35,278 nt of DNA from an uncultured Porphyromonadaceae bacterium (lineage in GTDB: Bacteria > Bacteroidota > Bacteroidia > Bacteroidales > Muribaculaceae). Within the stretch, counting starts at the first letter, position 1. Each line of letters starts with the position of its first letter. The translations under genes were made by a program, and so were the position numbers. Positions 12,474 through 18,336 of this stretch are shown one piece after another. The DNA is taken from positions 1 through 35,278 of the forward strand of contig CAMWPX010000004.1 of assembly GCA_947176205.1 (NCBI GenBank), given 5' to 3'. Under the pieces are notes generated by a model. The model saw only the letters and a list, made by a program, of their open reading frames with translations. It was not told where the DNA came from and ran no database searches.

Positions 12474-13745
12474 TTATTTTTTGAGTATGATTGTCTGTTC
12501 GCGGTCAGGACCTACTGAAACTATCGTGATGGGTACTCCGAGTTCGTTTTCGAGGAAATGAATGTAGTCCACGAATTCTTTAGGGAACTGTTCAGCCGAT
12601 TTCATGGCGGTCATGTCTGTACGCCATCCGGGCAGGGTGGTGTAGACGGGGACAATCTCATCGGAATCAACTGAATAAGGGAAATCACGAGTTATTTCGC
12701 CGTTGATAGAATATGCGGTACAAGCTTTTATTTCCGGGAAATTGTCAAGCACATCGCTTTTCATCATTATCAGGCGAGTTACGCCGTTGACCATAATGGC
12801 GTAACGTAACGCTACAAGGTCAATCCAGCCGCAGCGGCGCTCACGTCCGGTTACGGCTCCATATTCATGTCCGATGTCACGGATGGTTTTGCCCGTTTCG
12901 TCAAACAGCTCGGTAGGGAATGGTCCGCTGCCTACACGTGTGCAATAAGCTTTGAATATACCATAGACATCGTTTATCTTATTGGGGGCTACTCCAAGTC
13001 CGGTACATGCTCCTGCGGTGACAGTGTTTGATGAGGTTACAAATGGATAAGAGCCGAAGTCAATGTCAAGCATGGTTCCTTGTGCACCTTCACATAACAC
13101 TGTTTTTCCTTCGTTAAGCTGGTGGTTGATGTAGTGTTCCGAATCCACGATATCATAATCCTTGATGTATTCTATGGCATCGAACCATTCTTTTTCAAGG
13201 GCGCTTATATCGGGTGTTTCACCCATGGATTCGAGCATATGCAGGTGACGGTCGCGGGCATTGGCATAACGTTCGGCAAAATCTTTGGAAAGAGTGTCAC
13301 CCAGACGTACACCGTTGCGACTTATTTTGTCCGTATATGTCGGACCGATACCTTTTCCGGTTGTACCGATTTTTGCGCTACCTTTAGATTTTTCATTAGC
13401 AGCATCGAGCAGTCGGTGTGTAGGAAGTATCAGGTGTACTTTTTTTGATATCTTGAGAATTTTTTTCAGGTCGATACCTGACTTTTCAAGTGCTTCTGCT
13501 TCCTGGCGGAACAGTATCGGGTCAAGAACCACTCCGTTACCTATCAGATTGGTCTGTCCATGTTGGAAAATACCTGATGGTATCGAGCGGAGCACATATT
13601 TTTTACCTTCAAATTCCAATGTGTGTCCGGCATTAGGTCCGCCTTGAAAGCGGGCTATTATATCGTAGTGTGGTGTAAGTACGTCCACTACCTTACCCTT
13701 TCCTTCATCACCCCATTGGAGTCCGAGTAAAACGTCTATTTTCAT
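12474..13745 (-). CDS. purA: Adenylosuccinate synthase
   Basis: LLGLQWGDEGKGKVVD, GPNAGHT, GTTGKGIGPTYTDKISRNGVR. Confidence 0.97.
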   Translation of the reverse strand: MKIDVLLGLQWGDEGKGKVVDVLTPHYDIIARFQGGPNAGHTLEFEGKKYVLRSIPSGIFQHGQTNLIGNGVVLDPILFRQEAEALEKSGIDLKKILKISKKVHLILPTHRLLDAANEKSKGSAKIGTTGKGIGPTYTDKISRNGVRLGDTLSKDFAERYANARDRHLHMLESMGETPDISALEKEWFDAIEYIKDYDIVDSEHYINHQLNEGKTVLCEGAQGTMLDIDFGSYPFVTSSNTVTAGACTGLGVAPNKINDVYGIFKAYCTRVGSGPFPTELFDETGKTIRDIGHEYGAVTGRERRCGWIDLVALRYAIMVNGVTRLIMMKSDVLDNFPEIKACTAYSINGEITRDFPYSVDSDEIVPVYTTLPGWRTDMTAMKSAEQFPKEFVDYIHFLENELGVPITIVSVGPDREQTIILKK

Positions 13746-13773
13746 TTTGGTGTTATTATAAAGAATTGAATAC

Positions 13774-14244
13774 TCAGTTATTGGTTACAGTCGGTTGTGA
13801 TTTACGCATACATCTCGAGCAGATACCATGAATATAAACATCGGCATACACCGGATGAAATTTCGGATAGCGTCGTGATGAAAGCAATATGTCTAATTCA
13901 GCATCTTTTACTTCCTTTATTTTCCCGCATTTTGTGCATACAAGGTGATAATGTTTTGTCAGTCCTGTAATCTTTTCATAACGGGGTGTGCCGTTGTTGA
14001 ATGCGTTGCGTCGCACTAATCCGGCATCAATAAGCAGTATGATGGTGTTATAGATGGTGGCGCGGCTCACATGATAGCCATCATTATCTAATGCGGCATG
14101 TAATCCGTCGATAGAGAAATGCGAAGGTGTACTCATCACGGTCTCAAGTATAGCAAATCGTTCGGGTGTCTTACGCAATCGCTGGCGTGTAAGATATCCG
14201 GTAAATATGTTTTTAGCCGATGACTTGAGTTTTTCTTCGCTCAT
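13774..14244 (-). CDS. Fur family transcriptional regulator
   Basis: RQRLRKTPERFAILETV, HVSRATIYNTIILLIDAGLV, KHYHLVCTKCGKIKEV. Confidence 0.93.
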   Translation of the reverse strand: MSEEKLKSSAKNIFTGYLTRQRLRKTPERFAILETVMSTPSHFSIDGLHAALDNDGYHVSRATIYNTIILLIDAGLVRRNAFNNGTPRYEKITGLTKHYHLVCTKCGKIKEVKDAELDILLSSRRYPKFHPVYADVYIHGICSRCMRKSQPTVTNN

Positions 14245-14265: not shown

Positions 14266-15039
14266 TTATTTAAGATTCTCACGCACACGGTCAAGATAAT
14301 TTTTCATTCCATCGCTATCATGCCGTTCTACTATGGATTGAAGAGTGCGTAATTGTTGTTGGATTTTTTCAAGTTGTCGCGATGTATGCGGATTGAACAG
14401 AATCTCGCTTAGCAGGTAGTCATCTTCACTCATCAGTCCGTCGGCAATGCGTTTATGGCGTTTGAATGTCGTCCCCGGAGCATCCTGATGCTTCATTACA
14501 GAAGCGAATACGAGCGTGGATGCAAAAGGAATGGATAATGAGTATGCTATGGTAAGGTCATGCTCGGCAAAGGTATATTCTGCGATATTAAGATGCAGGG
14601 ATTGGTATAGCTTATGGAAAAACTCACGACCGGCTGTATCGCCTTCGGTTATGATTATGGCATTTTCATTTTCAAGATTACTTAGTGATGCGAATGTAGG
14701 TCCGAACATAGGGTGTGTAGAGACATATCGGTGATTGCATTCGGCATAAAATTCAGGTAATCCGGTTTTTACAGAAGCGATGTCGGATAATATACAGTCA
14801 TCCGGGATATGCGGTAAGATATTGCGGAACGCTTCTAAGGTATATTTTACAGTTGCCGCGTTTATAACCAACTCTGGAGCGAAGCCATCGACATCATTGA
14901 CATCGCTGAATCGTTCAGCTCCGTATGTGAAACGGAGTTTTGACGGATCCGGGTCATATATCCCTACCTGATGGTCGGCTGAAAGAAGGTCAGAGAAAAA
15001 CGTGCCCATTTTTCCGGCACCGAGTATAAGAATCTTCAT
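14266..15039 (-). CDS. tyrA: Prephenate dehydrogenase
   Basis: ILGAGKMGTFFSDLL Rossmann motif; STHPMFGPT motif; genomic context. Confidence 0.85.
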   Translation of the reverse strand: MKILILGAGKMGTFFSDLLSADHQVGIYDPDPSKLRFTYGAERFSDVNDVDGFAPELVINAATVKYTLEAFRNILPHIPDDCILSDIASVKTGLPEFYAECNHRYVSTHPMFGPTFASLSNLENENAIIITEGDTAGREFFHKLYQSLHLNIAEYTFAEHDLTIAYSLSIPFASTLVFASVMKHQDAPGTTFKRHKRIADGLMSEDDYLLSEILFNPHTSRQLEKIQQQLRTLQSIVERHDSDGMKNYLDRVRENLK

Positions 15040-15059: not shown

Positions 15060-16142
15060 TTATTTTATGCGGTCTTGAACTATCTCAATCTGCTGACGAA
15101 CGGATTCATCGTGTATGGCAAGAAGAATTACTTTCATAAAATCCTCTCCGATACCCATCTTTTTTGCTACTTCAAGCCGCGAATGTATTATGTCGTTGTA
15201 GCGTCCGGGCTGTACTACAGTCATGCGGTGCTCTTTCTTGTAGCGTCCGATATCACGTGACACAGCCATGCGGCGGCTAAGAATTTCAAGCAGCTCATTG
15301 TCTATACGGTCAATTTGCTGTCGTAACAACGTAAGATTTTCGGTAGTGGTGGATGTATCACGGATTACCAGAGTATTAAGGATGAAATTCAGTATCTCAG
15401 GCGTGATTTGTTGGGAAGCATCGCTCCATGCATCGTCAGGACTGCAATGAGATTCTATGATAAGACCATTGAAACCCATATCCATGGCTTGTTGTGAAAG
15501 AGGTGCTATAAGTTCTCGTTTACCACCGATATGTGATGGGTCACATATAATCGTCATTGATGGGAAACGAAGCCTTAATTCTATAGGGATTCGCCACTGA
15601 GGCATATTGCGGTACAGATGTTTACCATATGTGCTGAAGCCGCGGTGAATAGCACCTAAATTATGTATGCCGGCATTATACAGACGTTCGAGAGCGCCTA
15701 CCCAAAGTTCGATATCAGGATTAATCGGGTTCTTTACAAGTACGGTTACGTCAGTGCGACCGCATCTGGCTATGGCATCGGCTATTTCCTGTGTGGCAAA
15801 TGGATTGGCGGAAGTGCGTGCGCCAATCCATAGTATATCTACTCCGGCAGCAAGAGCTTCTTCCACATGGTTACGTGTAGCAACTTCCGTAGCAATAAGC
15901 ATTCCAGTGGTATTTTTTACTTCTTTTAGCCATTCGAGACCATCCGTACCGATACCCTCGAATCCGCCCGGTTTTGTACGCGGTTTCCATATACCGGCTC
16001 TAAATATTTTTATGCCTGAGTCAGCAAGACCCTTGGCTGTGTCTATAACTTGCTGGCGGGTTTCGGCGCTGCACGGACCGGCTATTACGATGGGTTGACC
16101 AGATTCTATACACGGGAATTTTAATGGTGCTATAACGTCCAT
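15060..16142 (-). CDS. Bifunctional DAHP synthase (type I-beta) / chorismate mutase
   Basis: IVIAGPCSAE, FRAGIWKPRTKPGGFEG; C-terminal AroQ-like LRQQIDRIDNELLEILSRRMAVSRDIGRYK. Confidence 0.93.
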   Translation of the reverse strand: MDVIAPLKFPCIESGQPIVIAGPCSAETRQQVIDTAKGLADSGIKIFRAGIWKPRTKPGGFEGIGTDGLEWLKEVKNTTGMLIATEVATRNHVEEALAAGVDILWIGARTSANPFATQEIADAIARCGRTDVTVLVKNPINPDIELWVGALERLYNAGIHNLGAIHRGFSTYGKHLYRNMPQWRIPIELRLRFPSMTIICDPSHIGGKRELIAPLSQQAMDMGFNGLIIESHCSPDDAWSDASQQITPEILNFILNTLVIRDTSTTTENLTLLRQQIDRIDNELLEILSRRMAVSRDIGRYKKEHRMTVVQPGRYNDIIHSRLEVAKKMGIGEDFMKVILLAIHDESVRQQIEIVQDRIK

Positions 16143-16143
16143 T

Positions 16144-17349
16144 TTATTTGATATTTAGATTTATTATTCTGTTAAGTGCTGCATTAAGTTTTGATGTGTC
16201 GGCGCAAAGAGATATACGTATATATTGTTTGCCTTGGGTGCCGAATATGAATCCGGGAGTAACGAATATGTCAGCTTCGTATAGCAGTCGGTCAGCAAGA
16301 GATGTTCCGTCAGGATATATTTCGGGCACCTTTCCCCATAAGAACAGACCTTTTTGCGTGAGTGAATACTTACATCCGAGAGCTGTCATGATTTGTTCAG
16401 CTATTTTTCTTCGTTCTGAATAAACTTGATTGAGTTCGGAGTACCAGCTGTCGGGCAGTTCAAGCGCTTTTACGGCAGCAAGCATGGCAGGGCGGAATTG
16501 CCCTGAGTCAATATTGGATTTTACTTGTAGAATCCATGAGATAAATTGCTGATTGGATGTGACCATAGCCATTCGCCATCCAGCCATATTATGACTTTTG
16601 CTCAAAGAGTTAAGTTCTAATGCAATTTCTTTTGCCCCCGGAATCTGCATTATGCTCATAGGAGAGTCATTCAGAATAAAACTGTAAGGATTATCGTGGG
16701 CTATTACAATACCATGCTTTTTGCCGAAAGCCACCGCACGTTCAAAGAGTTCACGAGTAGCCGGTGCGCCAGTAGGCATTTGGGTATAGTTGAGCCACAT
16801 TAATTTTATGTGTTCCAATGGTAGCTGTTCCAAAGCTTCGAAATCAGGATACCAGCCGTTATCTTCAGTAAGAGGATATGTGAAAATTTTAGCTCCAATC
16901 AGATTGCTTACTGACGAATATGTGGGATAGCCCGGATTCGGTATAAGAACTCCGTCGCCCGGATTAAGAAATGCGAGAGAAATATGGAGTACACCTTCTT
17001 TAGAGCCGATTAAGGGTAAAATTTCATTATCCGGATTAATAGTTACATCATAATGCCGTGCATACCAATTGCAGAAAGCTTGACGTAGTTCGGGTATGCT
17101 TCCGGAATTCTGATAACCGTGGACTGTAGCTTTGTGGGCTTCTTGACATAGTGTATCTATGACGCTGTCGTGTGGTGGACGGTCCGGTCCGCCGATGCCC
17201 AAAGATATTATGTCGTGACCTTGAGAACGTAAAGAAGCTATTTCACGAAGTTTTCGTGAAAAGTAGTATTCGCCTGTAGACTGAAGACGTTCGGCAGGTT
17301 TGATATTATAATTGTCAGATTTCATTATCGCATTCTTTATATTGTCCAA
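16144..17349 (-). CDS. Class I/II pyridoxal-phosphate aminotransferase (probably aromatic pathway)
   Basis: ISLGIGGPDRPP, HDNPYSFI, ELNSLSKSHNMAGWRMAM. Start may be the internal Met at 17325. Confidence 0.9.
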   Translation of the reverse strand: MDNIKNAIMKSDNYNIKPAERLQSTGEYYFSRKLREIASLRSQGHDIISLGIGGPDRPPHDSVIDTLCQEAHKATVHGYQNSGSIPELRQAFCNWYARHYDVTINPDNEILPLIGSKEGVLHISLAFLNPGDGVLIPNPGYPTYSSVSNLIGAKIFTYPLTEDNGWYPDFEALEQLPLEHIKLMWLNYTQMPTGAPATRELFERAVAFGKKHGIVIAHDNPYSFILNDSPMSIMQIPGAKEIALELNSLSKSHNMAGWRMAMVTSNQQFISWILQVKSNIDSGQFRPAMLAAVKALELPDSWYSELNQVYSERRKIAEQIMTALGCKYSLTQKGLFLWGKVPEIYPDGTSLADRLLYEADIFVTPGFIFGTQGKQYIRISLCADTSKLNAALNRIINLNIK

Positions 17350-18172
17350 GTGATTTGTAATCGGTTAGAAGTGGAAGGATAGCATTTATAGCTTGTTGGT
17401 AGCGTGCATAGCTGTCAAAAGTTAGGTCGATATAAAATCGATATTCCCATTCTCTTCCTATTATAGGGGTAGATTGTATCTTGGTGAGATTTATATCATA
17501 AAACGATAGTATGGTCAGTACTTTTGATAATGCTCCATTGGTGTGTGGCAGGGTGAAGACTATGGATGCTTTATTTATATCGTTATCGGTCACGTTTTTG
17601 TTCTCTGAGTATTTATCGGAAAGAATCAGAAAACGGGTAAAATTTCGTTTATTTGTTTCAATGCTTTCAGCAAGAATATCCAGTCCGTAAAGATGTGCTG
17701 CGTATGCACCACAGATTGCAGCTTGTCCCATCAGATGATTTTCGGCAATATGTCGCGCGGCTCCGGCAGTGTCAAAGGTTTCTGTCATTTTGGCTTTGGG
17801 AAGCGTGTGCAGAAATTGTTCGCATTGCATAAGTGCCATAGGGTGTGAACAAACTTCGGTTATGTCATTGAGAGTTTGTCCCGGTAGCGCAGCAAGAACA
17901 TGCGATATACGCATTTTATGTTCCCCGGCGATAACGAGATTGCTTTTTCGCAGGAGTTCATGATTTTGCAGAAGTGGACCGGCTATGGTGTTTTCAATCG
18001 CGACTATACCTTTAAGTGATGGGTCTGAATCAAGCGTATCAAACAGATGCGGAAAGCTATCGCACTCTATGGTGTTGATATCTGTTTCAGGAAAATATTT
18101 TGCGAAATAATCTCTTGCGGCAGCATCGTGATAGCAACCGGCTATACCTTGTATGGTGATGTTTTGCGTCAT
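17315..18172 (-). CDS. pheA: Prephenate dehydratase
   Basis: GIAGCYHDAAARDYF, VAIENTIAGP, TRFLILS, ACT domain HTNGALSKVLTILSFYDINLTKIQSTPI. Confidence 0.93.
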   Translation of the reverse strand: MTQNITIQGIAGCYHDAAARDYFAKYFPETDINTIECDSFPHLFDTLDSDPSLKGIVAIENTIAGPLLQNHELLRKSNLVIAGEHKMRISHVLAALPGQTLNDITEVCSHPMALMQCEQFLHTLPKAKMTETFDTAGAARHIAENHLMGQAAICGAYAAHLYGLDILAESIETNKRNFTRFLILSDKYSENKNVTDNDINKASIVFTLPHTNGALSKVLTILSFYDINLTKIQSTPIIGREWEYRFYIDLTFDSYARYQQAINAILPLLTDYKSLGQYKECDNEI

Positions 18173-18175
18173 ATC

Positions 18176-18208
18176 AAAAAAATCCCGAACCTTGATGAGG
18201 ATCGGGAT
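18176..18208 (-). terminator. Intrinsic terminator / attenuator hairpin upstream of pheA
   Basis: Minus strand ATCCCGA-T-CCT-CATCA-AGG-T-TCGGGAT followed by T7; ends 3 nt before ATG 18172. Confidence 0.85.
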
Positions 18209-18258
18209 ATATAGTTTGTTTAATCTGTTACGTTATTTTCAAATCAAATGCATATAAA

Positions 18259-18290
18259 ATCCCGATTTTATTCATGGTAAAAATAAAATC
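18259..18290 (-). promoter_or_regulatory. Attenuator helices 1, 2 and antiterminator segment
   Basis: GATTTTATT (18290-18282) pairs with AATAAAATC (18272-18264). Overlapping ATCGGGAT (18266-18259) pairs perfectly with terminator arm ATCCCGAT (18208-18201). Confidence 0.8.
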
Positions 18291-18321
18291 CAAAATAGTT
18301 ATATGCATAAAATCGTGTCAT
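18268..18321 (-). CDS. Phe/Tyr-rich leader peptide MTRFYAYNYFGFYFYHE
   Basis: 17 codons with 4 Phe and 5 Tyr, promoter immediately upstream, attenuator helices immediately downstream. Confidence 0.85.
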   Translation of the reverse strand: MTRFYAYNYFGFYFYHE

Positions 18322-18328
18322 AATGCTG

Positions 18329-18336
18329 CAAAGATA
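18329..18336 (-). promoter_or_regulatory. -7 element TATCTTTG of the leader/pheA transcript
   Basis: TAnnTTTG match 7 nt before the leader ATG. Confidence 0.6.

Follow-up and report, generated by a model that had tools for sequence, protein, structure and literature searches.

Which amino acids control entry into the aromatic amino acid operon of this bacterium, and by what kind of switch is that control exerted? The operon lies on the minus strand of the window, as we call the whole stretch of 35,278 nucleotides analysed, and the initial annotation placed a leader-peptide attenuator sensing both Phe and Tyr in front of its first gene, pheA. The hisS gene is located upstream of this attenuator on the same strand. 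The features of the locus, in order of transcription, are as follows.

18336-18329, minus strand: Bacteroidota -7 promoter box of the leader transcript, TATCTTTG; homologues carry TAnnTTTG near the leader
18321-18268 including the stop, minus strand: leader ORF, MTRFYAYNYFGFYFYHE followed by a stop, 17 codons with 4 Phe and 5 Tyr; F/Y-rich peptide kept in relatives
18308-18299, minus strand: region 1a, ATGCATATAA, 5' arm of the outer 1:2 helix, leader codons Y-A-Y-N; 10 bp with 18257-18248, covarying
18290-18282, minus strand: region 1b, GATTTTATT, 5' arm of the inner 1:2 helix, G-F-Y-F codons; 9 bp with 18272-18264
18272-18264, minus strand: AATAAAATC, 3' arm of the inner 1:2 helix, overlapping the leader stop; pairing and covariation
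18266-18259, minus strand: region 2, ATCGGGAT, 5' arm of the antiterminator; 8/8 pairs with region 3
18257-18248, minus strand: TTATATGCAT, 3' arm of the outer 1:2 helix; pairing and covariation
18208-18201, minus strand: region 3, ATCCCGAT, common to the antiterminator (2:3) and the terminator (3:4); pairing and covariation
18208-18202 / 18188-18182, minus strand: intrinsic terminator ATCCCGA / TCGGGAT, 5' arm / 3' arm
18188-18176, minus strand: region 4, TCGGGAT and T-run, 3' arm and tail of the terminator; 94% of cells paired, covarying
17318..18172, minus strand: pheA, prephenate dehydratase, regulated gene 1 (NF008865, E 1.6e-54)
16144..17349, minus strand: aminotransferase class I/II, gene 2, start codon uncertain (NF006756, E 2.7e-117)
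15060..16142, minus strand: DAHP synthase / chorismate mutase (DAHPS/CM) fusion, gene 3 (NF006421, E 5.3e-54, and chorismate mutase models)
14266..15039, minus strand: tyrA, prephenate dehydrogenase, gene 4 (NF006409, E 4.9e-20)

The -7 box, the 17-codon ORF with its 4 Phe and 5 Tyr codons, the helices and the terminator of the initial annotation are recovered base for base at these minus-strand positions. Two 1:2 helices are nested in the window, and the 8-bp 2:3 helix competes with them; the intrinsic terminator (18208-18176) stands between the leader and the first structural gene. Phe and Tyr, the control codons of the leader, match the products of the downstream operon, and the density of F and Y is the highest among the 1,766 short ORFs (8-45 codons) of the window; of the 17 codons, 4 F and 5 Y specify pathway products in a presumably translated peptide, the third codon positions of which vary only synonymously among homologues. 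The fold of the minus-strand leader, put forward earlier as a check, lies five standard deviations under shuffled sequences: the attenuator strand (181 nt) folds at -43.3 kcal/mol against -26.3 +/- 3.4 (z -4.98; 0/200). A generic promoter and terminator scan of the window detected neither the -7 box nor the hairpin, because its rules fit sigma-70 promoters and short terminator loops. At the other end of the operon, a Fur/PerR-family regulator and purA (12474-14244, minus strand) lie close behind tyrA, likewise on the minus strand, and readthrough from the attenuated operon might reach them.

The best reading of this arrangement, and a highly probable one, is a ribosome-mediated transcription attenuator of the classical kind whose control peptide is rich in Phe and Tyr. 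Transcription would start just 5' of the leader ATG, with a ribosome following the RNA polymerase through the leader. With ample charged Phe- and Tyr-tRNA, the ribosome would reach the stop codon and cover region 2, so that 3:4 would pair and transcription would terminate before pheA. A shortage of either charged tRNA would stall the ribosome on F/Y codons, where it would cover region 1 and leave region 2 free to form 2:3, and RNA polymerase would then continue into pheA, the aminotransferase, DAHPS/CM and tyrA. The Phe/Tyr-sensing reading of the initial annotation thus finds support in what can be read from the DNA itself, namely the peptide, the covarying and mutually exclusive helices, the terminator, the promoter box and the codons that track gene products; what we infer from it is that in the cell ribosomes stall and transcription terminates or reads through accordingly, and that a shortage of Phe or of Tyr would open the operon by an OR logic.

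Modelling of ribosome stalls, with a footprint reaching 12 nt ahead of the A site, agrees with this scheme in its outline. With the ribosome at the stop codon, region 2 is no longer available for pairing and the terminator remains; before region 4 is made, stalls at the upstream F/Y codons allow 2:3 (mean P about 0.9). In the full-length equilibrium model of the window, only A-site codons 8-11 (Asn, Tyr, Phe, Gly) switch clearly to the antiterminator; the other F/Y-codon stalls give it only in the kinetic model, before region 4. Since most stalls favour the terminator at full-length equilibrium, the model implies that switching has to occur kinetically, which is the common case among attenuators. 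When no ribosome is present, 2:3 hardly forms in the window (P 0.007), blocked by the 1:2 helix of the same leader. Most homologues (36 of 53) behave differently: in them, 2:3 beats 1:2 before region 4 even without a ribosome, which means that the default off state there depends on translation reaching region 2.

The comparison with relatives proposed by the initial annotation covered 103 distinct pheA loci, mostly from Muribaculaceae and Barnesiella-like genomes, a few of them truncated by contig ends, and found the leader, its F/Y richness and the three helices kept together rather than the hairpin alone. An F/Y-rich short ORF lies 80-230 nt 5' of pheA in 69 of these loci. The usual peptide is MTRFYAYYYFxYFYFxKNKNGILCA, and its reading frame continues through region 2 in many relatives; that of the window stops at the region 2 edge. 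TAnnTTTG is found within 60 nt 5' of the leader ATG in 51/58 homologues, against 2.7% in shuffles. In most cases 17-43 nt separate the box from the ATG; the window and one relative (L002) have just 7 nt there, and the leader transcripts of these two are therefore probably almost leaderless. Tandem F/Y leaders, each with its own terminator-like hairpin, precede the aromatic operon at four loci, L124 (G192), L273 (G042), L325 (G468) and L328 (G626).

Six same-genus relatives (L032, L033, L034, L035, L040 and L044) have pheA almost directly behind hisS and no attenuator at pheA, and the covariance model finds no match in their genomes. Relocation of the attenuator upstream of hisS was considered for these hisS-linked relatives and rejected, as no comparable leader is found there; weak F-rich ORFs, scored on the reading frame alone, occur upstream of hisS in L032, L033 and L044 only.

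The spacing between hairpin and pheA bears on a different mode of control, in which the 3:4 hairpin beside the pheA ATG would hide the start codon and transcription would not end. The window could suggest such an arrangement, as its T-run ends 4 nt 5' of the ATG (18172). In many relatives, however, the terminator is tens of nucleotides from the ATG at variable spacing, and the U-run is kept in their alignment, so we regard control at the level of translation as very unlikely.

The covariation of the helices argues further for the attenuator. Swapping partners between species weakens 1:2 from -9.65 to -7.43 kcal/mol, 2:3 from -12.99 to -10.83 and 3:4 from -12.91 to -11.10 (0/5,000 permutations in each case), and the non-partner control 1:3 gives no signal in the same test. 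When partners are slid by 1-3 columns, pairing declines from 77-94% to 26-55%; these slid and non-partner controls matter because the swap permutations ignore relatedness. Pairs changed on both sides amount to 13/19 in 1:2, 4/8 in 2:3 and 3/7 in 3:4. The mutually exclusive antiterminator and terminator helices are therefore conserved, and all three helices covary.

Helices of this strength, together with the U/A-rich nature of F and Y codons, would also be expected of an RNA-only switch (a terminator, riboswitch or thermosensor) in which the short ORF arises incidentally from a U-rich helix. The codons themselves speak against it. In alignment columns with at least 70% F/Y, we count TTT 212, TTC 42, TAT 214 and TAC 83, and TTA or TTG in 0 of 551 codons, though TTA would fit well into an A/U helix. 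Such a pattern is not what RNA pairing by itself would lead one to expect; the third base in F/Y columns is always T or C, which indicates that the leader peptide itself is under selection. The start codon and the promoter box are conserved as well, and an Rfam riboswitch match is absent, leaving the RNA-only account extremely unlikely.

Within the selected peptide, F and Y interchange freely in several columns, and the YFYF core is nearly fixed. If only the Phe codons exerted control, the Tyr codons would simply be carried along by the pairing region, which is rich in U and A. No linked leader lacks Phe codons, and E. coli pheL sets the precedent of a Phe-only leader. Nevertheless, Y codons are no rarer than F codons (303 vs 256) and have T/C third bases; Tyr nearly disappears only where pheA stands alone, and is commonest before tyrA/DAHPS operons without pheA. 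Control by Phe alone is accordingly an unlikely reading. Separately, a Trp codon is embedded in the F/Y block (e.g. YFWFY) in L120-L122, L155, L157, L321 and L323, lineages in which Trp is possibly a third amino acid sensed.

The strongest evidence for dual sensing is provided by lineages with split operons rather than by the codon count alone. One genome (G054) has a solitary pheA preceded by MTRFFTHFFFFFTQQ and, at another locus, a tyrA-DAHPS/CM operon preceded by MNNTFGYYAFYYYFFYNN and followed 3' by two genes that resemble aroB and aroD by eye. An order-wide search for such splits added five genomes whose stand-alone pheA has a Phe-dominated leader (G402, G412, G594, G468 and G626) and five in which the stand-alone pheA has no recognisable leader (G476, G506, G536, G444 and G611). 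Mixed leaders, two of them doubled, occur on the tyrA/DAHPS operons of G402, G476, G536, G444, G468 and G626; together with G054, these are the genomes in which F/Y leaders were found at unlinked DAHPS/CM genes, and ten genomes of the class sample with split genes have none there. The Tyr fraction is 0-0.20 where pheA is alone, the leader being Phe-only or nearly so (six genomes, four families, a small set sought after the first case had been seen), 0.22-0.70 in linked pheA...tyrA operons (100 leaders) and 0.33-0.67 in tyrA/DAHPS operons without pheA. It differs by operon type with a Mann-Whitney P of 2e-5, or 4e-4 when each family contributes a single value. The nearly exclusive use of Phe where pheA is alone suggests that the switch probably responds to precisely those amino acids that the genes behind it produce.

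In two of these genomes (G412 and G594), ilvD- and ilvB-like genes, recognised by eye, lie next to pheA and have a separate promoter box, a leader rich in Ile and Leu, and a terminator; pheA there is therefore probably its own transcription unit. At L331 and L330, the Ile/Leu-rich leader between pheA and the ilvD-like gene (MRHMLTSIIFIILTCHGKK and MRHILTSILFIILRESGKK, respectively), with its TACATTTG box and terminator, is likely a branched-chain attenuator.

Across the class Bacteroidia, the leader is present in 36 of 55 sampled genomes bearing pheA, 32 of them with a strict terminator, against F/Y-rich ORFs in 0.9% of shuffled upstream sequences, and strong matches of the covariance model R1 occur at pheA only, one per genome. 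The arrangement is not due to chance, and the mixed Phe/Tyr leader, which the initial annotation took to be unusual, is the norm of the class, not a local oddity. Outside Bacteroidia, none of 20 genomes from the same phylum, all with divergent pheA, has such a leader. The leader occurs in three other-class genomes, L178, L182 and L192 (G267, G367 and G307, respectively), with a pheA unusually close to that of the window (43-45% identity); this combination suggests that operon and switch moved together in a possible transfer. We consider it likely that the leaders form a class-wide attenuator family whose specificity has been evolutionarily re-tuned to operon content, with Phe and Tyr codons before pheA...tyrA, Phe alone before lone pheA, and Tyr and Phe, sometimes with Trp, before tyrA/DAHPS, so that one switch can act as a Phe-or-Tyr sensor.

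The locus resembles the trpL, pheL, hisL, ilv and thr leaders of Enterobacteria in its ORF of control codons, its alternative 1:2, 2:3 and 3:4 helices and its terminator before a biosynthetic operon. Leaders with several amino acids are known among them, thr using Thr/Ile and ilv the branched-chain amino acids, and E. coli pheL is Phe-only. The present family differs in its mixed Phe/Tyr control codons, in phylum and promoter, and in lacking a detectable sequence-structure match to Rfam leader families: the window gives no gathering match to the amino-acid leader families, Phe_leader included, and up to E 5 only unrelated weak matches. The Leu/phe leader of Lactococcus (RF01743) likewise indicates two amino acids by its name; it concerns other amino acids and another host, and has no match here. 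A cis-regulatory RNA candidate is known from the same phylum, the Bacteroid-trp motif (RF01692), described in Bacteroidetes and named for trp genes (Weinberg 2010, PMC2864571). Its covariance search returns nothing in the window and nothing above the cut-off in 21 genomes including the window's, and it is a different element. A pheA motif known from Actinobacteria (Weinberg 2010) has no listed Rfam accession.

The portion available of a study on Flavobacterium psychrophilum (PMC9723704) reports a structured 5' element before pheA, kept in other Flavobacteriaceae and without an Rfam match, and its authors see clues for leader-peptide attenuation before amino-acid operons. These elements probably belong to the same family, whose existence in part of the class was thus already hinted at; the Phe/Tyr codon mix, the class-wide spread and the link between codons and genes are absent from that portion of the account. 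In the open-access papers searched, we found neither a Phe/Tyr leader family nor its codon tuning described.

The results add a widespread leader family that is absent from Rfam and would explain the control of Phe and Tyr synthesis in many gut and environmental Bacteroidia. The promoter-to-terminator switches could be usable in Bacteroides genetics, and the split-operon cases constitute a natural series on how control codons set attenuator specificity, including the sensing of either of two amino acids.
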